This document shows positions 178 to 64,000 of a DNA stretch of 64,000 nucleotides, piece by piece. Below the pieces are notes generated by a model, which saw only the letters and a list, made by a program, of their open reading frames with translations, was not told the DNA's origin and ran no database searches. This DNA comes from Eunapius fragilis (taxonomy: Eukaryota > Porifera > Demospongiae > Spongillida > Spongillidae). The position numbers and the translations under genes were made by a program. The number at the start of each line of letters is the position of its first letter. Positions within the stretch are counted from its first letter, which is position 1. The stretch is from assembly GCA_963681505.1 (NCBI GenBank), contig OY811989.1, forward strand, positions 1,195,577-1,259,576, written 5' to 3'.

Positions 178-3100
178 GCGTGTGCCACAGTCTCTCTGCC
201 CACAGAGGAGGCCAACACCAAGCTGCAGCACATGGCCAAGATGTTTCAGCTCTACGCTAATCGTGAGTGCAAGAACGGACCCGACATATGGCTGGCTTCC
301 ATATGTCGCTATGTCAACGATGTCTATGCACCTTTGGCCGCCCAGATATTGCGACACATGGCTGAGGTATGTGTAGTTACATGCCCATATATGGGCATAT
401 GTTTAAGGTATGTGTAGTTACATGCCCATATATGGGCATATGGCTAAGGTATGTGTAGTTACATGCCCATATATAGGCATATGGCTGAGGTATGTGTAGT
501 TACAGTACATGGGCATATATGGGCATATATGGGTATATCCATGTATGGCTGAGATATGTGTAGTACATGTGTTACATGTATGTACACGTTCATTTAAAAA
601 ACCTGCTGTGATTGTGGTGTGTGCATAGTCTCCATTTACATCATTACCTTTGCATGTACGCATGCACACACGTGCCCACAGCTTCTTGAGAGGGGCCGTC
701 CAGAGTACCACAGATCACTTCTGAGGATCATGACCGAACACCTCAAACTCCAGGACCCCACCAATGCCTCAGTGAGGGGAGTCTCCCAGGACCTCATGAC
801 TGTTGTGTTTCCTCACCTCAAAGGTGACCTCTGGAAGGAAGCCGTAGACATCATGAAGCTCATCATCTCAAGCTCCGCCTCCTTTGTCCGCCCGCCCACT
901 CATCACATCCCGGCGGATTTGGGTCTCTTCAATCAGTCCCTCCCGGGGGCAACGCTCCAGTTCTCAATAGACCTCAGGAACCCTTCAGACCTGGCTTTGG
1001 GGCAGGAGCATGTGACACCATCCACTACCTCATGGAAGAAGCCACAGGGATGTCAGCGCAGGACCAGAGAGAAGCTGTTGAGTGTGCTAAGTGCTTGTAC
1101 CCCTGTGGCCCTTCTCATGAGTAGTCCATCGGTGAGGGGTGTGGTCATGGTGAGGGTGTGGTAGTGTGCTAAGTGCTTGTACCCCTGTGGCCCTTCTCAT
1201 GAGCAGTCCATCAGTGAGGGGTGTGGTCATGGTGAGGGTGTGGTAGTGTGCTAAGTGCTTGTACCCAGTGACCCTTCTCATGAGCAGTTCATAGGTGAGG
1301 GGTGTGGTCATGGTGATGGTGGTGATGGTGGGCAGTGGTGTGCAGAGTGTAGTATTGTGGGTGTGTACATGTGTGTGTGCTTTGATAGCGTCTCCTGGCC
1401 TATGCAGGTGGTATTCACAGCGGAGTACATGGTGGACAAGCTCCCTCCATACACCATGTCTGATGAGGACGGTAACAGCAGCAGGTCCACCACTGAGGTT
1501 CCCGACTCTTCATCACAGCACGAATCGCAGGTGTGGAGAATGGAGCATGTGACATATCATGTGACTTATAATGTGACTGCATGTGACCAGATGGAGCATG
1601 TGACGTATCATGTGACTGCATGTGACCAGATGGAGCATGTGACGTATCATGTGACTGCATTTGACCAGATGGAGCATATCATATGACTGCATGTGACCAG
1701 ATGGAGCATGTGACTTATCATGTGACTGCATGTGACCAATCATGTCGCTCCATTTTAGGCTTACGCTGCAGCTGTTGGAGATGAGTTTAAGTTCCTGGAT
1801 GACATGAACTACATGTATGAGAGTGAGGGGGAGGGAGAGGGACCAAGGGCATGGAACAGCTTCCATGACATGACTGCCGAAGACCAAGAAGATGAGCAAG
1901 AACCAAGGTATGGGAGTACAGGGAACCAAGGTATGGGAGTACAGGGAACCAAGGTATGGGAGTACAGGGAACCAAGGTATGGGAGTACAGGGAACCAAGG
2001 TATGGGAGTACAGGGAACCAAGGTATGGGAGTACAGGGAACCAAGGTATGGGAGTACAGGGAACCAAGGTATGGGAGTACAGGGAACCAAGGTATGGGAG
2101 TACAGGGAACCAAGACATGGGAGTACAGGGAACCAAGGTATGGGAGTACAGGGAACCAAGACATGGGAGTACAGGGAACCAAGGTATGGGAGTACAGGGA
2201 ACCAAGGTATGGGAGTACAGGGAACCAAGGTATGGGAGTACAGGGAACCAAGGTATGGGAGTAGAGGGAACCAAGGTATGGGAGTACAGGGAACCAAGGT
2301 ATGGGAGTACAGGGAACCAAGGTATGGGAGTACAGGGAACCAAGACATGGGAGTACAGGGAACCAAGGTATGGGAGTACAGGGAACCAAGGTATGGGAGT
2401 ACAGGGAACCAAGGTATGGGAGTACAGAGAACCAAGGTATGGGAGTACAGGGAACCAAGACATGGGAGTACAGGGAACCAAGGTATGGGAGTACAGAGAA
2501 CCAAGGTATGGGAGTACAGGGAACCAAGGTATGGGAGTACAGGGAACCAAGGTATGGGAGTACAGGGAACCAAGACATGGGAGTACAGGGAACCAAGGTA
2601 TGGGAGTACAGGGAACCAAAGTATGAGAGAACAGGGAACCAAGGTATGGGAGTACAGGGAACCAAGGTATGGGAGTACAGGGAACCAAAGTATGGGAGAA
2701 CAGGGAACATTTATCTGTAGGACACATGTCCTTTTATCCCTTCCATGTGTGTACTGTAGGCCCAGGTACATGTGTGTACTGTAGGCCCAGGTACATGTGT
2801 GTACTGTAGGCCCAGGTACATGTGTGTACTGTAGGCCCAGGTACATGTGTGTACTGTAGGCCCAGGTACATGTGTGTACTGTAGGCCCGGGTACACGTGT
2901 GTACTTTAGGCCCAGGTACACGTGTGTACTGTAGGCCCAGGTACATGTGTGTACTGTAGGCCCAGGTACATGTGTGTACTGTAGGCCCGGGTACACGTGT
3001 GTACTGTAGGCCCAGGTACATGTGTGTACTGTAGGCCCAGGTACATGTGTGTACTGTAGGCCCAGGTACACGTGTGTACTGTAGGCCCAGGTACACATGT

Positions 3101-4462
3101 GTACTGTAGGCCCTGGTACACGTGTGTACTGTAGGCCCAGGTACATGTGTGTACTGTAGGTCCAGGTACATATGTGTACTGTAGGCCCAGGTACATGTGT
3201 GTACTTTAGGCCCAGGTACATGTGTGTACTGTAGGCCCAGGTACACGTGTGTACTGTAGGCCCATGTACATGTGTGTACTGTAGGTCCAGGTACATATGT
3301 GTACTGTAGGCCCAGGTACATATGTGTACTGTAGGCCCTGGTACACGTGTGTACTGTAGGCCCAGGTACATGTGTGTACTGTAGGTCCAGGTACATATGT
3401 GTACTGTAGGTCCAGGTACATATGTGTACTGTAGGCCCAGGTACATATGTGTACTGTAGGCCCAGGTACATATGTGTACTGTAGGCCCAGGTACATGTGT
3501 GTACTTTAGGCCCAGGTACATATGTGTACTGTAGGCCCAGGTACATATGTGTACTGTAGGCCCAGGTACATGTGTGTACTTTAGGCCCAGGTACACGTGT
3601 GTACTGTAGGCCCAGGTACATAGGGGTAGGAATATTTGCTGTGTTCTAATTTATAGATTCCATCTATCTGGTAGTTCTGTGAGCCTTGATCGTGATGACT
3701 CCACCACTGAGATTGAAGAGGACGACGCAGCTGCTTATAGAAGTATGTACCGTCTCTATCCACATGTGTGGTGTAATGTAGCCATCAGTCATTCAGGGGA
3801 GATAGGTGTTTGAAACAGTATTTATTAATGTTTATTAATGTTGTTATTGTTCTTCCAACTGCCAAACACACGCTACAGTGGTCTCCAGTCCACCTCCGCC
3901 CCAGGACACTCTATCGCAGCATCCCGTGATGGTACCGGCCGCACCCGCGGTGAACTCAAGCGAAACCACACCACACCCCTCTCCACCCCGACACGTCCCC
4001 AGGCCACTGGACAGCGGAGCAGAGTCTGACATGGAAGGAGACAAATCCACACCTCGGGAAACCACACCCAGTACCAGAGCATCCCTGGATAGTGACAGTG
4101 TCCCCTCTGAGGTTACAATGGAGAGCTCTCTCAGCCTTCCTCCCTCATCAGAGGTGGCCCCTCCTGCAGCCACGCCCCTGGCAGTGGAGGAGGAGGAGGG
4201 GGAGGGGGAGGGGGAGGGGATGACCGACGTCGTGAAGCAAGCAGTCTCCCTCCTGGATGTGAGTGACCTAGCCAGGCTGCATACTCTCAACAAGTCTGCC
4301 ACACTGCCTCGCAATCAGTCTTCCCAGGACCACAGCAAGAGGTACTGCTGCTGTTTGGAGCTAGCTGCAGTGTGTGGTCTGTACTGCATTTATAATGATG
4401 TACATATCCCTGATGGTGTACATGCATACTCCATACATGTACTTGATGGGGATGCACGCACG

Positions 4463-34700: not shown

Positions 34701-36442
34701 ACTGTGACCTGCCCCCTCTGTATTGTGATACCATTCACTTGAATGTTTTGCTTGCAAGACATATGTCACAGAGCCTGCAACTGTTTCTGTATAGTTAATG
34801 GTTTTGATTGATCTGCTATATAGTAAATTACCGCATGATGAATACAGAGGGGGCAGGGTCATAATACAGAGGGGGCAGGTCACAGTGCAGAGGGGGGCAG
34901 GTCACAATGTAAAGGGGGCAGGGTCACAATGTTATTAGCGGAGTTAGGGTATCTAGCGACTAGGGTATATACATTAAAATCTGGCAGTTTTGCACCTCAC
35001 ACTGATGCAGTAGTTCTATAACATCTTCTCATTCAATTCATAACTATGATGCCATTTCTACCATTTTACTTTTTTTTGCAAATGCACGAACCCAGTGTTG
35101 GCTTTTTAAAAAAAACCTTTAAAGTCTACACACAAAGTGACTTGCATTTGGGTGCATACAATATGTCATGCTGCTGTACTTACCAAATGCTGCTGTGTCA
35201 ACAGTCTCAAAGCATCTCACTACATGATAAGAGGCTAATATCATGAACGTTACAATGGCCTAACTCTTCCCCAGTCCTACCTTTCCAATGCTCCTTTAGT
35301 TTCTCGATTAATTTTAGGTCACTCTTTGAAGCACCACATCCACATCCTGTGCACACTCGGAGGTCGCATCCATACTTGGCAACTAATAATCTTAATAGCT
35401 TAACATGTCCTCTGGTGTATGCCTTATGCAAGGTGGTCATTCCATTAAAGTCCTTTGTGTCGATATCACAGTGAAACTCATTGATCAATAGCTCCACACA
35501 CTTCACGTGGCCACCTAGACCAGCACATGTTAAGGGTGTGTCGCCGTTTGCATCATGAGCATTGAGGTCACAGCCATACTTGGTGACCAACAGCCTTACC
35601 AAGGAGGTGTGGCCTTTTGAACATGCATTGTGAAGTATAGTCCCACCATCAGATCCCTTTGTGTTGATGTCACAGTGAAATTCATTGATCAATAGCTCCA
35701 CACACTCCACACTGCCACCTAAACCAGCACATGTGAACGGTGTTTCACCATCTGTGTCAGCATCATTGAGGTCACAGCTGTATTTGGTGACCAGCAGTTT
35801 CACCAGGGAGGTGTGACCTTTGAAACATGCATTATGAAGTATAGTCCTTCCATAAGCACCCTTTGTGTTGATGTCACAGTGAAACTCATTGATCAATAGC
35901 TCCACACACTCCTCACTGCCACCTAGACCAGCACATATAAAGGGTGTGTCTCCATTTGAATCACAAGCATTGAGGTCACAGCTGTACTTGGTGACAAGCA
36001 GTCTCACTAGGGAGGTGTGGCCTTTTAAACATGCCTTATGAAGGATATTCCGTCCATAAGCACCCTTTGTGTTGATATCACAGTTGAACTCATTGATCAA
36101 TAGCTCTACACACTCCTCATCACCACCTAAGCCAGCACATGTGAACGGTGTGTCGCCGCTTTTGTCCCGAGCATTGAGATCACAGCTATATTTGGCGACC
36201 AGCAATCTCGCCAGAGATGTATGGCCTTTGGCACATGCCCCATGGAGAATCGTTTTACCGTTGATTTTTCTGAAGTAAGATTCAAAATCCTTCACCATTG
36301 TGTTAACTGTTTCAACATCTTCGTTTAAAGCAGCTGTATAAACCTCCGTCATGAAACCATCACCTGCGGGATTCCATCGAGGTCGTACCATTGAAGCATT
36401 TTGAATGTCCTCTTTCATCGCAGACGCTAGTGTTTGTTCCAT
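28709..36442 (-). CDS. Ankyrin repeats + death domain + myosin V-type globular tail (DIL) protein
   Basis: Eleven exons with fully consistent phases encode 908 residues: 36442-35281, 34355-34065, 33678-33610, 33533-33465, 33052-32808, 32694-32602, 30698-30569, 30037-29850, 29472-29387, 29325-29160, 28936-28709. Exon 1 encodes about ten ankyrin repeats (residues ~60-380) arranged as near-identical 66-residue pairs (HxACxKGHTSLVRLLVTKY). Exon 2 is a death domain (WYDFGAFIGVKVSHLEDLKG, then WHTLVKAIAHPAGG). Exons 5-11 encode a complete DIL/globular tail: LVLDLKPDQVEG, LAFWLANTA, HPFIVPCMLEYEGL, FYYINGTMLNSIF, YNLSQLEEWCRKRGL and a C-terminus that stops right after FLTMV, as myosin V tails stop shortly after their last strand. 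No motor, IQ or coiled-coil region precedes it. Myosin V tails bind organelle adaptors; death domains assemble signalling complexes; a cargo- or membrane-linked signalling scaffold is inferred. The intron 29386-29326 is only 61 nt. Confidence 0.85.
30057..30255 (-). repeat. 19/38-bp minisatellite beside an acceptor
   Basis: About ten copies of CATGTCCCTGGTTACAGAM directly upstream (in gene sense) of the acceptor of exon 30037-29850; alternate copies differ (ACC/AAC), giving a 38-bp higher-order unit. Confidence 0.92.
30320..30500 (+). repeat. 20-bp tandem repeat, nine identical copies
   Basis: The unit TAACTATTAGGATGGTTGAT is repeated nine times without change, in the same intron as the 19-bp array. 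Confidence 0.97.
30721..31430 (+). repeat. 13-bp minisatellite, about 54 copies
   Basis: The unit AGGGATAGTCCAT begins about 23 bp from the acceptor of exon 30698-30569 in the large intron. Read in any frame on the minus strand it gives the artefactual Trp-Thr-Ile-Pro-Met-Asp-Tyr ORFs. Confidence 0.97.
31460..32305 (+). repeat. 27-bp minisatellite, about 31 copies
   Basis: The unit AGTATGGTGGTGAAGTGGAC plus ACACATC, with variant positions (GAA/GAG/AAA, CAT/CAG) forming a longer pattern. A 27-bp period produces open frames on both strands. Same intron as the 13-bp array. Confidence 0.97.
33139..33330 (+). repeat. GT tract followed by CA tract
   Basis: GT-rich 33139-33220 and CA-rich 33255-33330 are complementary and could fold back in the intron between exons 33465 and 33052. 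Confidence 0.93.
34575..34935. repeat. G tract plus inverted GACCCTGCCCCCT satellite
   Basis: After a G18-type run, 34600-34735 has copies of GTGACCCTGCCCCCTCT; 34845-34935 has the complement AGAGGGGGCAGGGTCAC. The two blocks form a large imperfect hairpin in intron 1 of the ankyrin gene. Confidence 0.85.
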
Positions 36443-37559
36443 CACTGAGTTACACTGCAGAACACCCTTGGAGATAGTCGACTCTCAATAATATCGAACT
36501 AATGGGTGGGGGGTTACCCGTTGGTCACGTTTTATCGCAGTATATTCATTGGGCTAAAGCATCACAGCTTATACGTCTTTATTAAAATCATAGGTTCTCA
36601 GTGTATACAGTAGAGGGACTCGCGTATGTGGAAAAATCACACCTCACGTACATGTATATGTGGAAACTGTTCATCTGGTAGAACATGTAAAAGAAACAAT
36701 CGATAGTTACCGCGACCCCACGTAATGCGATTAGCACTGATCGTACGTCCGTTCAATGCGTAAACAACTTGGAGTGCACCGGTGTCACGTAGAATTAGGG
36801 ACCCATAGAACTAGGGACCCCCGTCCCTAAATCTCCGTAGAATTGGGGATCCCCGGCCCTAAATCTGCGGAGATTTGGGGTCCCCCCCGTCCCTAAATCT
36901 CTGGAAAATTGGGGACCCCTTCATAGAATTAGGGACCCCCCCCCCTCTCTCTACCGCCCAACAAGTTTGATTGAGCGCACGTTAGTCGGTATTTGAAGCG
37001 TGTACGTTAGGGCAAGTGTGTCTCTTTGTTGTGACTTATCAGTAACGACGTGGGCACGTGCACGACTCATAGCTGAATTTGCTTCCGCGAACTGTTACGT
37101 TTATATAGGTTGGGTATTTATAAGCTCTGAGTATACGCTACATGTTTTCAAACAATAAACGCACTTAACCTTCACGGTATTAAAATTCATTCTAGTACAA
37201 CATACTGGCAAAACTGAAAATTGAACTTGATGAAGCAAAAAAAAAATGTACTCACTGAATTCAACATTTAAATGGGTTGATCAGCTAGCTTGAACGCAAG
37301 AACAATAGATATGAAACAGTGTAAATGTTCGATACACCCTTTCTGAATCAGCCTTGTCAATTTTTGCACTTCCAAATATAGTTTGGCTTCTTCCAACTTC
37401 TCTTTGATATAGATTTGTCGCATTCTATATGAAACCTCTTCTGACAAGCACAAAATTCTATCATAGCCCTTGATTCTCTCATTCGACAGTAGCAGTATAC
37501 TGGAATTGTTTCTTCTCCAGATGGTTTCTTTGTCTCTTTGCATGCATGCTTGGAAATGT

Positions 37560-39589: not shown

Positions 39590-41800
39590 AAGCTCCCTGG
39601 TTTCATGTTGGTGTCGATTTAATAGGACCATTATGCCCTATGTATTTCTAAGGAGGGTAATCGGTACATTTTATCACTTAGTGACTATTTTTCTAAGTTT
39701 GTTGAAGCTGTACCACTTCTGGATAAGTGTGCTAAAAGTGCATCAAGGATTCTAGTCAAGGTGATATAGTTATTCAAGTTTATAGGTAATGCTTGACTAT
39801 TTTTTTTCTCGAATGTATACAGATCTTCATGAGAATGGGAATTCCGAAACAACTGACAATGGAACAGAGTTCAAACATCAGCTTGACACTCACTTGGCAT
39901 AAGCACTGGGAATTAAACGGATATTTACTACACCATATCATCCTCAGGTTTGTTATAACATGATGAACTCCATATAAAAATAAAAAATAATACCTTTTTA
40001 TCCTCATGTTAAGCTTTAATTGCACAACACGCGTAGGGCTGTGATTTGAATATCACTAATGTAGTGGATACATGTATTAATTGCACCTTGTTTCTTATGA
40101 TTTTACAGGCAAATGGTCTTGATGAACGATTTAACAGACCCTACAGAATATGATAGTGAAGTTTGTTTAAGACAAAAAGGAAATGTGGGATGTATATACT
40201 TAGACTCTTCTGTTTATGCATTATTCGACAACCTTTTCTCCATTTGAAGTAATGTTTGGTCGAAATTTAGCAATTCTTCCTATTGATATCAACATTGATG
40301 AAAAGGAACCAGATATGATGCTAATGAACCAAGAAGAGCCAGCAATTACTGAAGTTATTGATGTTATGAGTGAGCAGCGTCTAAAAGTACTTGAGTCTGT
40401 GAAGCAAAGTATACAGCAAGCTCAGATAAAACAGAAGCATGCATATGATAAGAAGCATGCAAGTAAGCATTCATTTGAAGTTGGAGAATGGTGATAAAGA
40501 AAAACTTCAGAAAAGCTGGAGGGAAGCTGGACACACCTTTTGTAGGCCCGTACATTATTGTCAAGTGTCATGGCAAGGGGCTGTATTGTCTTCAATCAGC
40601 CAGCAATGCTGCTGAATTTGTTGAAAGGGTTAGTGGAGCATATTTGAAACCATATCAAAAGCCAAAAGAGAAAGCTATAGAGAATAATATGGAAGAAAAA
40701 GCTTATGAGCAAAATGATGAACAACCATTAAATGATGATTATGAAAATGTAGATTTCGAAGTGCTTAGTAAACAAATCAACTGTACACACTTGCTTCGTT
40801 TGTGGCAATCAGGAGCCCATGCATTGCACTACAGGGGAGAAGAAGATGATGACGGATTTGATGTAAGTGTCTATTTTACATATAAATCCATGCATATGTC
40901 AATTTTTTTCAATTCTGCATTACATTTAAAGCAAGGAGATTATACTCTAAGCAAAGATATTGATGTTGCTCTGTGGATAGACTACCGTTCATACTATGGA
41001 GAAGCGCCGCTAAAAAATGTATGGAGGAGATTTTGTTATAGTAAATGAAGGCCTAAATGATGAGTTTGACCTTTTTAAAAGAAAAGTCATCTCTTACCTG
41101 GATGATGCATTGAGAATGATGAGATCAATTGATATACTGATCAGGGAAAGCAATGTCTCAGTGCAGTCACTTCAGGTACTTGATAGCACATACTACCTTT
41201 TGTCACCATTAGATCTGGATGACTATTGCCAGTGTGTCCTAGATGCAAGAAAATTCTTTACAGATTAGCCTGTCACTCAGAATACTCTACAACGTTTCAG
41301 AGAACAGCATTTAGATCAAACTGCCACTTCATTTTTGGAAATTGTGAAAGAGGTAGAAATTGAAAATATAAGCTTTTTACCGGTATGTAGTGATTGGCAA
41401 GAGGAGAGATGTCATGTGTTAGGAATCAAATTTGTTGCTGACAAACATTTTCATCATAGTGACCCATCCATTATGAAGGTCTCACAAGCTCCAGCAGGAA
41501 CTGAAAGAATCAAGGGTGATGGAAATTGTTTTTTTTTTCGGTCAATTGCACTGGCTGTAACTGGATCCCAACAGGATCACCAAGAATTCCGCCTCCTTAT
41601 TACATCCTACATAATACATAATGCATCATTTCCCAAGCTGGCCTGCTTTTTGGCCCAAAATGAGTCAGTAGAACAATACATGAAACGTACAAATATGCAA
41701 TCACTTGGCACATGGGCCACCGAATTTGAAATAATTGCAGTAGCATCTTTACTCAGAACAACAATATATGTTTTTGCACCTGTAGGAGCAACCTACTAAT
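39590..41800 (+). pseudogene. Decayed integrase gene with OTU-like protease module
   Basis: Frames in order: integrase core start (GVDLIGPL and DYFSKFVEAVPLLDK, ~39610-39735), DNGTEF (~39860), PYHPQ then after an intron NGLDERFN (~39940-40135), STTFSPFEVMFGRNLAILP (40225-40280), a GPY/F-type module FVGPYIIVKCHGKGLYCL (~40540), a linker region with one stop at 41268, then an OTU motif IKGDGNCFFFRSIALAVTGS (~41510-41570) with the catalytic Asp-Gly-Asn-Cys. Frameshifts and stops show it is dead. Gypsy-like integrases joined to OTU or Ulp1 proteases are a feature of Ginger-type and related transposons. Confidence 0.75.
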
Positions 41801-46822: not shown

Positions 46823-49800
46823 ATGTTCAAAGAACTGGCTCTGTTCGCTGCCTTGCTGGCCATATCGGCTGCCGCATACCCCCAGGCCTACAGCAATGAA
46901 ATGGTTTGCAACGTGCATGAACGACATCGAACTAACGCTGATCTAGCGGGCTATTTGAATACCCGCGACTTTTTGCATCTATTAGAAGTTTCCCGAGATT
47001 GAGGCAGCTGTGGAGGAAAAACAGGAGGAGACCGTTGCTGCTGAGAACGAAGACGACGTAGTAAACGGTAAAGGACTCACCTGTGTGTATTCACTCTTGC
47101 ATGAGGAGTAATGTTAACCATGCAGTATAGTATCGAACGCAAATTAAAGTATACTATTTGTGTTTTCCTTATGCAGAGATGGTGGCTGCTTACCTGAGAG
47201 CCAAGAATGCTCAAGGCCTCAAGGCACAGAAACAGAACGATGAACAGTTCGTTAACAAGGTCAGCTACATGCGCGCAGTTTGAGCAAAGCGGTCTAGCTA
47301 GTATGTATGTGATATGCAGGGGCGGATACAGGAATTCTATAAGGGGGGTGTCAGACATGAAAATCAATAGGGGGGAGGGTGCGGGAGGGGGATGTGCCCC
47401 CTCCCACGCGAAGCGTGCAAGCTTTTGGGGGTCCCGCACTTGGCGACATAGACTACATATCAATATTGAAGCCTTAAATTGGGGGGAAAGTAAATGGCGG
47501 CGAATAATGGTTGGGGGGTTCGCGTGGGTCTCGGTGCAACTCATAAACTGCGCATCCTAAATTCATGACCTATTGGAGTGGAATGTAGAAACTGTCGAGA
47601 GAGGCATTTCACATTTGATTGAACTAATGAAACAGTAAAATGTACATTTACTACAACATATCATTTACTTATACAAAATACAAGATTGAGACATTTTCCT
47701 GTGTGCTTGTTGATAAATGCTTCACATACATTCATCAATTTCAACTGTGACAAATGCTGAGCGTATAGTTCATAATTAGCAACTTAGAAATGAATACCGG
47801 GTAGCCCTTATTGGCATAACGAGATACTCGATCGGCCTGCCGGGCGGTTGAAGTCATGACGGGTGCGTGATTCCTGTACGCGTAAATCCATAAATCTTTT
47901 AGTACATTACCTTCTGCTCAATGAGGTGAGTGAACACGTTTGCTTGCCATCTGGATGATACGCTATATCACGTGGGATGTTAATTGCATTTGTATTGATA
48001 CTTAATTCTATTCATCACCAGTCGCCCCCCCCCCCCCCCCCCTCTCGCCCCCCCGTACATATCAGCCTCTGTCGTAAGCTGACCGCTTTGTCGCCAAGAG
48101 GTTAATGTGGTGAAGATATGGTTGAACCAGGTTGATTTGCGTACTTTAATTCACGTTAATTTATTCATGATCGGCTGGAAGGGGGGTGTCCGGACACCCT
48201 GGACTTCCCCCTGTATCCGCTTCTGATATGATGCAGCGCCCGTCTATACACTTTGGTTGCCTGTCATACATGACTGCGGGGTCTTCCTTCGCAAGCCGCG
48301 ATCTTTTTATCCAATCAGTTTGTGGGGGCTCCTACATACACGCATGCAACTTATTCCAACAGGCGACATCCATTTGCACGAGTCAACGGCGCTGCGCAAA
48401 AGATTCGAAAACTGAATCAGTTACGTAAAATCCTATATAGCAGGCATAAGGGAAGTGAACACGTCGCGAAGCTATCACCTTATAAGCTTTGTTGCTCATT
48501 TTACGCATGAATAAAGCCGGTGAAGTCCACTAACCACTCTATATAGAGCTTTGCGCCTTAATTCATATTTAAAAAGTGCTAACAAGTGCATACCATGGCC
48601 AATATATCTTCAAGCATAGCACACGGTGGTATGCTGGTATCGTTATGCGTTCTTTCTCCATCCATGCGCAAGCATTTCTTTCAACTGGATAGCATGCATG
48701 CATAAATGAGATCGTACAAGCCTTCAGCTAGTCTTGCGTGCAGGTGTGATGCATGCATGTGGTTGAAATATTTGGCAGCGCGGCTCTCAGCGGTTTGTAA
48801 TTGCACGCGATATCCCGACACGTTGCAATTGAGTTACATTAACATTGCGGTTTACCGCATTTCTCATACATGCATCCCTCAAACCCGCGCGCATACATGC
48901 TGAAAGGACCGCTAGTTTAACTTTAACAATGCAATGGGCAATATTGGATGCATCAATATTGCTCATTTATGTAACACAAAGTGCTCGCCATATTGATGTG
49001 TACATGCTAGCTATTAATAATTACTTAACTCTTCCACCATCCGCAATGCATTGGCATTCGATGCACTCAATCTAAAGTTGGACCTCAATACTCAGGCGAC
49101 ATGTGTAAGTACCAAATTATATCGGCGGGCGTACAGCATTCAAGCAGACCTTGCATTATTGTTAACTGTTACTCTTCCCCTAATCATGTGGTCAAATGAA
49201 ACGGACAGTGTGTGAGTACAAAATCTTTGAAACTGCATGTGCGGCCAATGACTTTGTTTTCCTCCATTTTCTTCCTTTCACTGTCACAACATATGCACGT
49301 GACTGCAGTCCGTAAGTTCCTAACCAACATCCGTTTCCTTGCATGTTGTAATGCTGTGTTGTGCGTTTTTATGAATTGCGCTTTGTTTCTGAACGAATAT
49401 ACTAAACACCACATCAGTGTGTAAGTTGGCGCATACTAGTCAAATATCAGTAATATCACGTGACATATGCATGCCTTTCATCCAAATGTCCCCGCTCACC
49501 TCCTCTGAAAAACTTCAGTTTGTAAGTCTAGTATCATCTACCGTGTATCCATTGTTATTCCATGTTGCATACATTTGTCTTTTTGGAACATCGCGTTCTT
49601 AATGCAGGTGGTAGGTGCTGAATGAGAAATATATTACACTGACGTATTAACTTATTTTTACGCGGGGGGACCGGGGCGAAATGAAAAAAAAAATTCCACC
49701 CAATAGTATTTAGTAAGTTTGTGATATGTGAATATCCAACTGGTATTATTCTCTTCTGACATATCGATATTTGCTATATCATCTGATATTTGTACTACAA

Positions 49801-51306
49801 AGGGCGTAAGTGGCACTGCATGGTGTTTGTTTCATCTGAATTGATCAGTGACACATTTTTTTTTTTGCATGTTTGGCCACTACTTCTCATGAAACAATAC
49901 CTTACAGACTGTAAGTGTAACAGAATATTCCAACTAGGAGCTGTACATTACAACTATTCCCCCCCCCTGATTTCCCTTTTTATGATTATAGAGCGTAAGC
50001 TTCATATAGATGGCATTGTGTACTGACTTAATTGATTTAAACTCGTGCCATCTTTACACTGTACATGGTACTAGATTGTAAGTGTTGGCGCATAATTTGG
50101 AACATTTTTTATTATCCTAATTCCTTCTTTGGATTAAAAAATGAATGCAGAAGGTAAGTGCCATTATAACATTCGAAAGTGATAATTATATTTGTCTTCT
50201 ACCTATTGCGACAATAACAACATACGCAGTGCGTAAGTTGCATTTTGCATACTCTAATTGATACATGTATACTAATACTATTTTCTTATTCATATTATTG
50301 CCATTATTTTCCTGAATTGAAACATGCAGTATGTAAGTATATGTTTTCAGTTTATTGAGTAGTACGTTATTCAATTTCATGGTTCGCAAATGGAATGAAA
50401 CTTATTAATATGTCTACATTAAGCCGGTAAGTACCATCATCATTTAATTAACTCGCTGCATGCGTGGCGTTTTACCCGATGCTAATATTAATTGACAGAC
50501 GGTAAGTACCTGAAGTATTGAATGGATTTCATGACTGTATATATACCCCAATGTCATCTCTTACCTTCAAAATTCAAAGGGAGTAAGTTTGCGACTCACA
50601 TACACATGAATGCACTCACACATATATGGTGTACTGTATTACTAAGTGCATACTATCTCTCCAACCCTCCCCCTCCCCCCCCTCCGCACATTTGCAATCG
50701 TCATCAGTGTGTAAGTGAACGTCATTGTTCCAATTCGCATATCTGGTATATTGTTCATTTTACCGTTCATGCTCTGCCACAATGATCAAAACTGAATAAT
50801 GTTTCAGATTGTGAGTTAGCATTTTTTAAAACCAGCAGTGATTAATAGATACAATCTTTATTTTATAAATTAAACCAGCGCGTAAGTGGAATCATTATGA
50901 TGTCTATATGTTATGACCAGTGAATCTTACAAATGGATGCAAACGAAATTGGTGAACGCTTTCAGTGTTATGTAAGTGCACATGTTTGCATTTATATACC
51001 ATGCTGAATTACTGTACCTTCTCTTGTCTGGCTTAATATGGCTGTCAACATTAATGCCATCACATGTGTAATGTTAGCGTGGGGTAAGTTTCACACAGAA
51101 TTGGTCTCAATGTGTATTGAAACATTTAAGGTCACTGCCTACAAATCCACTCCTGCATAAAAATAATATGCAATAAAAGAAGAAGTAACAGCTGGTAAGT
51201 ACACTAAGAGTGCACAGCGAACAAAGATTTAATACATTGTTTCATGCAGCAATTCAATTGGAATATTTGGGACATGCTGCTGATAGATTCAATGATAGAA
51301 TTCTAG
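46823..51306 (+). CDS. Secreted cysteine-rich peptide precursor encoded by 27 exons, 23 of them microexons
   Basis: Exon 1 (46823-46903) encodes a signal peptide (MFKELALFAALLAISAAA). Exon 2 (46998-47067) is acidic (EEKQEETVAAENEDD). Exon 3 (47177-47259) encodes a Lys/Gln-rich helix-like stretch. Phases 0 and 1 match. After a 1.8-kb intron come 23 microexons of 9, 6 or 3 nt (listed separately), then the final exon 51250-51306, 18 codons with stop TAG. Total 124 residues. The microexon part adds 28 residues with six cysteines, spaced C-C-x-C-x9-C-x4-C-x2-C. The layout of signal, acidic pro-region and cysteine-rich segment is that of many secreted bioactive peptide precursors (defence, venom-like or hormone); which one is unknown. 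The exon 1 donor is weak (GTTTGC after 46903, or GTGCAT six bases later, same phase). Extra microexons may exist in the large intron (candidates 48517-48519, 48620-48628, 48791-48796). The joined mature peptide is not written out. Confidence 0.72.
47317..48225. mobile_element. About 0.9-kb TIR element in the large intron of the microexon gene
   Basis: Left end CAGGGGCGGATACAGG and right end CCTGTATCCGCTTCTG are inverted; ATATG flanks both ends. Subterminal GGGGGTGTC repeats also pair. The interior includes a C tract at 48025. No coding capacity; similar ends (GGCGGATCTAGG) occur at 16776 and 28120. A hAT-type non-autonomous element is likely, but the exact duplication length is uncertain. Confidence 0.65.
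49096..51194 (+). other. Array of 23 microexons (3, 6 or 9 nt), each AG-exon-GTAAGT
   Basis: Microexons: 49096-49104, 49209-49211, 49309-49311, 49418-49420, 49519-49521, 49608-49610, 49707-49712, 49803-49805, 49908-49910, 49992-49994, 50075-50077, 50151-50153, 50230-50232, 50330-50332, 50424-50426, 50499-50501, 50580-50582, 50708-50710, 50808-50810, 50879-50881, 50966-50971, 51078-51083, 51192-51194. Each directly follows AG and directly precedes a strong donor: GTAAGT in 19, and GTGAGT (49212, 50811), GTAGGT (49611) or GTAAGC (49995) in the rest. Introns are 55-125 nt and not obviously alike. All lengths are multiples of three; joined in order they total 84 nt with no stop in frame 0 but stops in both other frames. 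Cysteine codons: third codon of the first microexon, then 49209, 49418, 50230, 50708 and 50966. Confidence 0.75.
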
Positions 51307-60752: not shown

Positions 60753-63383
60753 TTAAGACAGGACACATCTGGTGAGGATGGCTGTAGCGTTGGCTCTCAC
60801 CAGGTGAAGGTTCAGCCTGCCATAAATGTCACTTAATACTACTGACTTGGGCCTGCAAGTTAAGGTGGCAATCCGAGAGGCCACCTGGGAGAAAGCTTCT
60901 GTGGCTTCCTTTCCCCATGCACCATAAGTTTCAGTAACCAAGGGAACACACAACCAGCCCAGTTCATCACACTTGGCATCATTGGCTTTATGTTTTCTAT
61001 CTTCAGTGGCTCTGGCAGCTGAACCTGCAGACACTCCTGCTTCCAACAAGGTGAGAGTATTAAGCGGAGAGGTCACAGATACATCAAATGCTGCTGTCTT
61101 GCCCGTAGCCCAGTTGGTCAACAAAAGGTCGGCAGGGCGGGTGTGGCTATGGTCAGCAGTGAGGTCACTGCCAGCTTCCACCTGGACACTGAGATGAGCC
61201 CGATGGCACGTTTCAGGCAGTACATCACGCAGGGTGTTATGTCGCGTTACCACATCACCCCCCCGCTTACAAGTGATGGCGTGATGTCCAAGGAGGTCTA
61301 GGGCATTGTCAGGGCAAAGTGCACACTGGGACCCCTGGGATGTGTCTAGGCCAAGCCACCACTTTATAGCAACTTGATGTACTGGTGGATCAAGGTGCAG
61401 ACCCAATCCCTCTGAAGGGACTACTGACAGCCAAGAGGATGCATGGGCAGATGAAACAGAAAGTAATCGTGCTCTGTCAGCAGTGGAAGAATTTTCTAAC
61501 AGCAAATTGAACATATGTGTGTCCAACATGCTGGAAAGCTTCTTTTGGGACACTGAAGGAGCTGAGAGAATGGAGTTGACTTGCAGAACCTTATCAGGGG
61601 GGACATTTGAATTAAAATATGCAACTGCAGAACAGAGGTGAGGATTGGTCTGGGAACCAAACCCAGATGAGCAAACAGAGGCTATATAAGCTGCTGGTGC
61701 ATGATGGTATAGGGAGCGGAGACCCAAACCTCCCTTACTAAGGCCTAACATGGACTGCCTCCAAGCAGCATCTGATGTATCCACAGCAGTACAGGAGGAG
61801 AAGCATCTGCTAACATCTTGGTCATACAGCTGGAGGGCTGCACGAGATAATGATGGTGGTGTGGTACGTGCAAGATGGACAAGCCGACAGAAGCCACCAC
61901 ACACACAGAGAAGGGTTAGGGCAACCTGGGGATCAATTAAGCCCACATCCTCAAGCCTTGAGAGCAGGCTCTTGGCTTCAGACTGTTTGCGAGTGATAAA
62001 TTGGTGGCAAAACTCAGTATCTCCTATGGGAGAACCCAGGATGTCTATGTTAGAATTGTTAGACTTTTTAATGTCAGATGGAAAACAGTCAAGTGAGCTC
62101 TGGCTAAACACCTCACACTTAGGGATATTGACATGGAGGCCAAGTGGAGGACCTAACTCTTGAAGCAAGGCCAAGATATTGCTCACAGTGGACCTTGGAC
62201 CTGCCAGAGCACCATCATCCAAGTACCAGGCGTGAAACTTGAGACCAGCACAATCATCTCTACTAGAAATTGCTGACAGCAGGATATTTAATACCAAAGA
62301 GAACAGCAAAGGACCCAGGGGGTCACCCTGCTGAACACCCTGCTCTGAAGTAAGGCAACCCAAAGGATGCCAGAGGAATGGGTGATGGCTGTAGCACCAG
62401 CTAGTCCATGGGAGCAGCTCTGGAAAGTGTTTTGCACACTCATCCAAGACCGCCTGGCGAGACACCATATTAAAAGCATTTTTAAGGTCCACCTTTAGAA
62501 CAACAAAATCATCCTCCAACCAATGTTGCTCAATGGAATCCCTTAATCCATGGACCATTTTTTCTGCCCCAAATGGGCATGCAACTCCAAACTGAAAAGG
62601 GTGAAAAAAGTGTTGAGCCTTTATCTTGACTGCAGCACAGAGGCATTTTCCAACCAACTGGCGTACAGCTTCTCCCACTGCAATAGGCCGGACATCAAAA
62701 GGGCACCCAGGTTTGGATTTATTTAAAGCTGTAAGATTGCCTCCTGCCAGATAAGCAGAGATTTCAACAGGTGCCTTACCTGCAGCCAAAATATTGATAA
62801 CTGCCCTGAGTGAGTGCAAAATTGGGGTCTGCAAAGGCACTTCTGCAGCATCTATAAGATGTTGTATACGGAGCCCAGAAGGCCCAGCAGCAGTTAGCTT
62901 GGGGAACGATCTCAATATTGCCATGAGGATGATCTCAGCTGGGATTGAGGTTGATATGTGAGATGGGGACGGAGTTTTGGGGCACTCACCCTTAGGATGT
63001 TTGGTTGCCAAAAGTCTCCAGGTCTCATCATTGTTGGGTGCAAGACCAGATGATACCAGGGTCTGGCAAGCTTTGTTGTACAAACCATCCTGAGCTAGGG
63101 AAATTGCTGATGTAATTTGCTGTTTCAGAGAGATGTTCTTGGTGCGATAGTGTTTATTAGTGCTAGAGACCCGTGACAATGCCAAGTTCCAAAGCTCACT
63201 GAATTGGTTTCGCAGCCAAAGGTCACAAAGAAACTCAATTGGGACAGGCTTATTGTGACGACCTCTGCGTTGGCAGCTTGGTAATACACATTTGGGAAGC
63301 ATCATAAGCTTCAACCATGATGTCACTGAATTATCTGAAATGATTTCCTTTAGAACAGAACTGAGCACCTTTGCAAAGGCCAA
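60753..63383 (-). mobile_element. Intact non-LTR-like retroelement ORF: reverse transcriptase + zinc knuckle + endonuclease-like domain
   Basis: Single 876-codon ORF. Residues ~160-180 TAAGPSGLRIQHL; ~230-250 RPIAVGEAVRQLVGK; motif A VLKVDLKNAF (Asp299); motif B GVQQGDPLGPLLF (~349-361); motif C YLDD (387-390); motif D NIPKCEVF; a CX2CX9HX4C knuckle (Cys687, Cys690, His700, Cys705); then HTRPADLLL (Asp752) and AAFDVSV (Asp767), resembling the restriction-like endonuclease of R2-type elements. The order of RT, knuckle and endonuclease is that of early-branching LINEs; YLDD instead of the common YADD is unusual. No frameshift or stop, so recently active. Three decayed copies lie in the window. 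The true start may be upstream of 63383. Confidence 0.85.
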
Positions 63384-63433
63384 CTTAGCTCTCTTTATTA
63401 ATATTATAATAATTATTAAAATTAAAATTATAA

Positions 63434-64000
63434 TTATATATATACGGACTGAACCTTTGTCGTTGCGCCAATCGAATCATCAGCTCCTGCTGTCGCTGTC
63501 TCCATTAGCCAAGCACCTATTTCTTTGGATCTCACTGCCCTACTTTTTTTGATGTTCTTAGCTGTCAGCTGCGATGCACGCTTGGCGCTCTGAATAAATT
63601 GTTTGAATTTACATACGCGCGTACGCATGCAAAATTTTGACCGACCTGTGACAGTGATGTTGGCTCACTTGCACGATAACCGTCATTGGCATCAAGTTCA
63701 GAGGGCTGCTGTATATATAGTAATGAAAAAAGTGAATTCACACTGCATATATAGACGCTGATTCAAAATTAATCCATGGCCACCTGGGGTAGGTCTAGAT
63801 TTTCTTCCTGTGACTGATCCTCTTCATTTGATAATGCCCTGCATTCTGATTCGGTACCTAATAAAACATTCGAATCATATATATGGCGACACGCAGCGCT
63901 GCATGCATGGATACGCTTATAAGAGCAGCTTACCGATGAACAATATGGTTGCTGGAAAATAACTACGACCAAATCGGACAGTTACATTCGTACCCACTGC
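63434..64000 (-). other. Possible exons upstream of the retroelement
   Basis: Minus-strand open stretches 63628-63434 (SAKRASQLTAKNIKKSRAV, GAWLMETATAGADD) and 63972-63769 (ALSNEEDQSQEENLDLPQ) look coding in composition and could be N-terminal exons of the retroelement or of another gene. No domain recognised. Confidence 0.3.

Follow-up and report, generated by a model that had tools for sequence, protein, structure and literature searches.

Micro-exon genes (MEGs) and tiny exons are already known. MEGs have been picked by runs of at least four consecutive micro-exons of < 70 nucleotides (nt) with lengths divisible by three, and in flatworm MEGs exon skipping yields proteins that differ by one residue (PMC7653826). 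The exons of MEGs are given as 3-81 bp (PMC10526429). In aphids, bicycle genes have about 17 exons on average, and one megacycle gene has more than 100 micro-exons (PMC9168663). Isolated exons of 1 nt or 3 nt are spliced in, as in Arabidopsis APC11 and Drosophila homothorax (PMC4674806; PMC7392893). Very short exons (below about 50 nt) are regarded as difficult to define and as easily skipped (PMC4674806). In this study, we analysed a 64,000-nt stretch of the genome of the sponge Eunapius fragilis (contig OY811989.1, here C19, positions 1195577-1259576), which is called the window hereafter. We hold with high confidence that the window contains a real protein-coding gene for a secreted cysteine-rich peptide, the mature part of which is predicted to lie on mostly one-codon exons separated by introns of mostly 55-125 nt.

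This gene resembles the MEGs of schistosomes and tapeworms, which also encode secreted proteins with a signal peptide and show runs of in-frame micro-exons and high variability. It differs from them in that the run is mostly one-codon, which applies to 19 of the 23 micro-exons in the window and, among similar arrays elsewhere in this genome, to 27 of 27 in the array L048 and to 37 of 38 in L039. The introns of the sponge arrays are mostly 55-125 nt long, whereas MEG introns reach 5 kb. The bicycle and megacycle effectors of aphids are likewise fast-evolving secreted proteins encoded on many very small exons (PMC9168663). However, the internal exons of bicycle genes are almost all in phase 2, whereas the sponge micro-exons are in phase 0 and are mostly single codons, and the sponge products are cysteine-rich. 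Sponge ribosomal peptides such as stryphnines and asteropsins share the order of signal, intermediate and mature cysteine-rich part (PMC13418204). In the asteropsin/stryphnine knottins, C-x6-C comes first and CC stands in mid-pattern, whereas the window peptide, the only one compared and that by eye, begins ATCCSC (PMC13418204). The words exon and intron are absent from the text of that paper, so gene structure is not described there. The tiny exons of APC11 and homothorax are single exons, whereas those of the sponge arrays stand in rows. A search of openly licensed PMC papers found neither a long row of one-codon exons nor such a sponge family, and the remark in the sequence-only reading, an earlier reading of this DNA made without database searches, that no long run of one-codon exons was known holds in that literature. 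What appears to be new is the length of the one-codon rows, which at its extreme is undescribed in the literature searched.

The predicted gene of the window

The sequence-only reading had claimed 23 sites of the form AG + 3, 6 or 9 nt + donor within 2.1 kb, and all of them are present on the + strand at 49096-51194 (all site positions are based on the window). Nineteen of the sites enclose 3 nt, three enclose 6 nt and one encloses 9 nt, and their total of 84 nt is the length of the insert that had been claimed. The introns between the micro-exons are 68-125 nt long and the last intron is 55 nt long, in agreement with the range of 55-125 nt given earlier. Our recount also agrees that GTAAGT occurs 19 times in the array with AG exactly 3, 6 or 9 nt 5' of every one. 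The donors of the remaining four sites are GTGAGT (twice), GTAAGC and GTAGGT. Strictly inside 49096-51194, AG-3/6/9-GTRAGY was found 20 times, a count that omits the first and last sites, which straddle the edges, and the GTAGGT site, which has another form; in 2000 first-order Markov sequences the mean was 0.19 and the maximum was 3. Outside this stretch, the window has five such motifs in 61,901 bases.

When the 23 micro-exons are joined to the exons at 46823-46903, 46986-47067, 47177-47259 and 51250-51306, a closed open reading frame (ORF) of 387 nt that ends in a stop codon is obtained. The first of these exons, with 27 codons, contains the start codon and the predicted signal peptide, the second encodes an acidic propeptide, the third encodes the end of the propeptide (EMVAAYLRAKNAQGLKAQ...), and the last encodes the C-terminal tail and the stop codon. 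The predicted product therefore starts with a signal peptide and an acidic propeptide, continues with a six-cysteine mature stretch in which most residues have an exon each, and ends in a short tail. The longest unbroken one-codon row in the window has 13 exons (micro-exons 8-20). The sixth site was placed at 49608-49610, where GTG is followed by GTAGGT. At the last site a second AG lies 6 nt further upstream; its use would add TAACAG, with a stop, and the nearer AG was taken because only this one keeps the frame open.

The published working definition of a MEG includes at least seven exons, of which at least half are micro-exons of < 70 nt divisible by three (PMC7653826). The window gene has 27 predicted exons, and 24 of them are of this kind, namely the 23 micro-exons of the array (3-9 nt) and the last exon, which has 57 nt. 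Its consecutive micro-exons number 23, or 24 when the last exon is included. By predicted exon structure alone, the window gene is a MEG in this published sense.

Codons, splice sites and tandem copies

The triplets behave as codons. No stop was found in 435 one-codon exons of 23 loci, and 91 of these exons encode cysteine. The first set of loci, with one array taken per paralogue pair, comprised 13 arrays with 244 one-codon exons. It contained no stop and 52 cysteine codons, whereas the position-wise base composition predicts 12.5 and 22, respectively; triplets inside the introns, taken as a control, gave 17 and 10 stops per 244. The second set, ten further loci from which clusters of fewer than four sites were dropped, gave 191 codons with no stop and 39 cysteines.

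The whole genome (218.9 Mb, 24 contigs) was also searched with a pattern of successive AG-NNN-GTAAGT sites. With TRR as the middle triplet there were 20 matches, namely 11 with TGG and nine with true stops, and all of the nine are inside one minisatellite (C16:5603760-5604229). With a cysteine codon as the middle triplet there were 118 matches. A 4-nt version of the pattern gave 231 matches and its reversed control gave 1195; all 100 matches listed for the 4-nt pattern resemble short-period repeats in the 80 bases viewed of each. Two places, C3:4930441-4933339 and C11:1238525-1239802, are large minisatellites with AG-4 nt-GTAAGT in many of their units. Such minisatellites caution against any genome-wide counting of splice-like motifs. 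No probability was put on the genome-wide counts because paralogous arrays are not independent.

The sites also have properties of splice sites. In 17 arrays there are 296 GTAAGT, and AG lies exactly 3 nt upstream of 261 of them, 6 nt upstream of 19 and 9 nt upstream of 14. Exons were chained in more than one way. Chaining B, in which lengths of 1-15 were accepted with no preference, took 220 exons, of which 199 have 3 nt, 15 have 6, 9 or 12 nt and six have other lengths. Chaining C, which is looser and includes the flanks, took 259 exons, among them 221 of 3 nt, 11 of 6 nt, eight of 9 nt, one of 12 nt and two of 15 nt. AG is almost missing from the 30 nt upstream of 184 acceptors, where it stands at 8 of 5152 positions although 4.0% would be expected; it returns further upstream. 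An AG-exclusion zone is a known mark of real 3' splice sites. There is no strong pyrimidine tract beside the acceptor AG.

The introns of the window array are mutually 0.532 alike, against 0.519 after shuffling, and the other diverged arrays tested behave likewise. In L042, L043, L044 and L022, the introns are related (0.64-0.78 against 0.55, with a mean identity of 0.78 in L043) and resemble one consensus. AT directly follows the six-base donor in 59 of 79 introns of the related-intron arrays but in 17 of 99 introns of the diverged arrays. Where two introns are at least 90% identical, the codon is the same in 17 of 79 pairs for the upstream intron and in 12 of 79 for the downstream intron, against 3-7% in the lower classes; pairs that are 80-90% identical show no codon memory, and the pairs are not independent. 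Near-identical introns thus tend to carry the same codon, which suggests that some arrays grew by duplication of intron-plus-codon cassettes, in which the codons would then have been replaced faster than the introns; the pairs support this in part. An enrichment of UGCAUG, an Rbfox-type motif, was considered and dropped: TGCAT is above shuffles, but TGCATG is about 1.8 times the window background and is uneven between arrays.

Two further copies of the gene (copies B and C) are located about 29 and about 39 kb downstream on the same contig, with identities of 84% and 89%. Both paralogue gene models are intact, with an in-frame stop in the last exon, close behind as in the window gene. All 27 amino acids of exon 1 are identical across the three copies, and the acceptor used for exon 2 is the one common to all three. 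Nearly all splice sites match, in the same exon order. The exceptions are the 21st site of copy C, where GTATAA is not a GTAAGT-type donor, and the 22nd site of copy B, where GTACGT is found. Some micro-exons differ in length between the copies (3 against 6 nt, 6 against 9 nt) without loss of the frame, and none of the six cysteines is lost.

In the three comparisons of these window copies, exon bases are 74.7, 74.7 and 86.7% identical, whereas introns are 90.9, 92.2 and 94.8% identical (Fisher p = 5e-5, 7e-6 and 7e-3) and the AG and donor bases are 96.2, 96.2 and 98.9% identical; these percentages omit sites 14 and 21 and rest on a position of site 6 that is off by one base. A stricter count was restricted to one-codon exons (17, 17 and 18 codons). 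Differences were found at 13/51, 11/51 and 8/54 exon bases, against 10.0, 9.0 and 6.0% of the introns (p = 0.002, 0.006 and 0.017), and at 0/119, 0/119 and 0/126 splice bases, where the sites had been picked for intact signals in one partner and only the other partner was free to differ. Codons differ 2.4-3.2 times more than introns between the window copies. The changed codons are nonsynonymous in 5, 5 and 5 cases and synonymous in 2, 2 and 0. The central proposal of the sequence-only reading, a coding region split into 23 mostly one-codon exons, is thus supported at the level of DNA by the closed ORF, the paralogues, the length changes that preserve the frame, the stop-free triplets (genome-wide, apart from the one minisatellite), the cysteine excess and the AG-exclusion zone.

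The predicted micro-exons, all on the + strand, follow a long first array intron of 1836 nt (47260-49095). Micro-exon 1 (49096-49104) has 9 nt and encodes A T C. It is followed by micro-exons 2 (49209-49211; C, donor GTGAGT), 3 (49309-49311; S), 4 (49418-49420; C), 5 (49519-49521; F, with Q and Y in the paralogues) and 6 (49608-49610; V, donor GTAGGT). Micro-exon 7 (49707-49712) has 6 nt and encodes Y L. The unbroken row then begins with micro-exons 8 (49803-49805; G), 9 (49908-49910; T), 10 (49992-49994; S, with M and P in the paralogues, donor GTAAGC), 11 (50075-50077; I), 12 (50151-50153; K, with S in both paralogues) and 13 (50230-50232; C). Micro-exon 14 (50330-50332) encodes Y, and in both paralogues it has 6 nt and encodes K G, which is an in-frame length change. 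The row ends with micro-exons 15 (50424-50426; P), 16 (50499-50501; T, with V in both paralogues), 17 (50580-50582; G), 18 (50708-50710; C), 19 (50808-50810; I, donor GTGAGT) and 20 (50879-50881; R). Micro-exon 21 (50966-50971; 6 nt, C Y) is read as 9 nt in both paralogues, and micro-exons 22 (51078-51083; 6 nt, R G) and 23 (51192-51194; L) complete the array.

Inside the long first array intron, a stretch of about 0.93 kb (about 47317-48250, + strand) has no match in either paralogue. By eye it is flanked by the inverted sequences GCGGATACAGG and CCTGTATCCGC, and it looks like a small inserted transposon.

The family in this genome and in Ephydatia muelleri

The pattern of successive AG-NNN-GTAAGT sites matched at 365 + 637 = 1002 places in the genome, against 91 + 151 for the pattern read backward. 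Array-pattern loci that are at least 5 kb apart number at least 71, on 17 contigs. The loci inspected were ten plus ten fetched loci and some of 30, many of them overlapping, from the pattern search. Chaining A allowed only in-frame exon lengths and no stops. By this chaining the row of L048 runs without a gap, L043 has 33 one-codon exons among 34 with one gap, and the remaining exon of L039 has 9 nt. Many of the chained arrays end C-C-C.

The signal exon found at 13 loci is of the type MLKELALLVTLLALFADARPQ, and the window version is MFKEL. A search of the genome with the signal exon gave 58 matches at E up to 1. For 36 of them, a listed array lies at most 12 kb downstream on the same strand; the controls were 1 for upstream and 3 for the opposite strand. 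The third exon, EMVAAYLRAKNAQGLKAQ in the window, is also found in L049 (EMIISYLRAKNAGSLTSQ) and L054 and, more loosely, in L048. This shared exon makes a common descent of the window gene and the tandem-type arrays very likely. Membership in the MLKEL family was judged by comparison of the window with L049, L054 and L048, and the signal exon, the acidic pro-exon, an EM..YLRAK-like exon and the one-codon array were all found. A genome search with the prepro part recovered the window gene and its copies B and C; its one other match, at C19:1802072, is weak (E 0.18). The sequence-only reading could not reveal that the window gene belongs to a family with dozens of members in this genome.

A profile of five predicted precursors matched 33 proteins at E up to 1. 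These are 11 Ephydatia muelleri names or Em identifiers, 21 proteins from ENA contigs and the window's own ORF, and the named matches are from E. muelleri only. The prepro part is well matched in the relatives (27 of the 33 proteins examined), and the third exon of the window resembles E. muelleri proteins. Some E. muelleri models, such as P0124, continue beyond the third exon. In P0125, P0126 and P0134, the third exon is joined to one residue and then to VSITNV, VSIHDV or VSINDV, which we infer to be the in-frame reading of an array intron (GTAAGTATC..). Ordinary annotation would miss the functional part of the sponge peptide family, as the E. muelleri models stop after the prepro part or enter an apparent array intron. 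Among the other searches, the first protein search matched the window's own ORF alone, PDB gave no credible relative for two peptides, and Pfam gave no match for four predicted products.

Other features of the window are as follows. At 1900-3621 there are minisatellites (23-bp and 25-bp periods) in which several reading frames stay open for long distances. An ORF of 425 amino acids at 35207-36484 (- strand) consists of repeated units that resemble ankyrin repeats. The ORF at 41269-41799 (+ strand) contains GDGNCFFFRSIA, which resembles an OTU-type cysteine protease. A long reverse-transcriptase-like ORF at 60753-63476 (- strand) has 944 relatives, and E. muelleri is the sole named organism among the 120 matches listed.

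Rival readings and a probable mechanism

Several observations weigh against the reading of the arrays as rows of one-codon exons. In chaining C, 16 of the 259 exons, most of them at array ends, have lengths that are not multiples of three. Several arrays have gaps in which no good site was found, and therefore not every chain is complete. The control with the reversed 3-nt pattern is not zero because the genome is rich in minisatellites, and the 1002 places were inspected in part. When 25 loci were scanned upstream, 13 had a signal exon of the MLKEL/MFKEL type, five had another hydrophobic start and seven had none that was convincing, two of these seven with little upstream sequence covered. 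The window's own divergent signal exon and its copies are not among the 58 matches of the signal-exon search. In the pairs L045/L046 and L014/L017, exons and introns change alike, and L040/L041, the alignment of which is poor at one end, is without a clear exon excess; exon acceleration is therefore known for the window copies only. The existing E. muelleri models are without a clean array. The longer-tailed model P0126 ends YNYCCC and looks like a joined array, but it was dropped as transcript proof since its end matches a dispersed repeat of this genome, and the alignment of its tail to 28 predicted peptides is weak (at best 8 of 300 shuffles reach the score). Finally, the inclusion of any single 3-nt exon is inferred here from DNA.

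The rival that survives best accepts the micro-exons as real but regards their use as combinatorial, so that varied skipping of one-codon exons would yield many peptide variants from one gene. Each of the 23 exons has a length divisible by three, and the reading frame would thus survive any choice among them; flatworm MEGs are reported to vary by one residue via exon skipping (PMC7653826). However, six cysteine codons stand at fixed places among the window paralogues and several arrays end C-C-C, which fits constitutive inclusion, and we consider combinatorial use possible but doubtful. Some arrays are gapped or without good flanking exons, as would be expected if the family were decaying or unexpressed, that is, formerly spliced in this manner and now made of pseudogenes. 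This is very unlikely, because the 435 codons are free of stops, the signal peptide is identical in the three window copies, and the splice signals are better conserved than the introns. The sites might also be recursive-splicing (ratcheting) points or decoys, the three bases of which are not retained in mRNA, and regular AG...GT sites in a row resemble such points. Classical ratchet sites, however, are AG directly followed by GT with nothing between, whereas 3 nt lie between them here. The lack of stops, the richness in cysteine, the length changes in threes and the codons that differ more than introns in the window copies also make ratcheting highly improbable. The many minisatellites of this genome and the related introns of arrays such as L043 might suggest that the arrays are minisatellite DNA without coding function, in which the AGNNNGTAAGT motif is incidental. 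This is hardly credible and was rejected, since the similarity among the window introns does not exceed that of shuffled sequences, yet their splice ends are constant, the 100 matches listed for the 4-nt pattern look like short-period repeats, and a neutral repeat would neither avoid stops genome-wide nor sit downstream of a signal-peptide exon.

The preferred reading is thus a real gene, all or most of whose micro-exons would be joined in the mRNA. Each short intron is probably recognised across itself, that is, by intron definition. The donor is unusually complete: it is GTAAGT, and in many arrays GTAAGTAT. The intron side of the GTAAGTAT donor is complementary to the 5' end of U1 at every base. 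With the donor information nearly all on the intron side, the three exon bases would be free to vary. The introns would be removed one after another, each step adding one codon, because a donor occupied by U1 would leave hardly any room for the machinery of the 3' splice site, which lies 3 nt upstream. With exon lengths divisible by three, single residues would be added or removed without a frameshift whenever an exon is gained, lost or skipped. This may suit fast-evolving, possibly defensive, peptides. The form of the products, which are predicted to be secreted, cysteine-rich and variable, suggests a function in defence or signalling.

If this is true, the arrays, with up to 37 one-codon exons and with 27 in a gapless row in L048, would test intron definition under extreme natural conditions. 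Dozens of genes could also be compared for the order of splicing and for the way in which U1 and 3' splice-site factors replace one another over a distance of 3 nt. The arrays would further provide an evolutionary system in which a single residue is the unit of exon gain and loss. We tentatively propose, as one conceivable history of this sponge family, that mature peptides have been turned into one-residue cassettes, each consisting of an intron plus a codon, so that single residues can be gained, lost, swapped or skipped to give a large repertoire for defence or recognition, with the spliceosome working like a zipper at one codon per intron. Regulated splicing in single cells perhaps also feeds this peptide repertoire.

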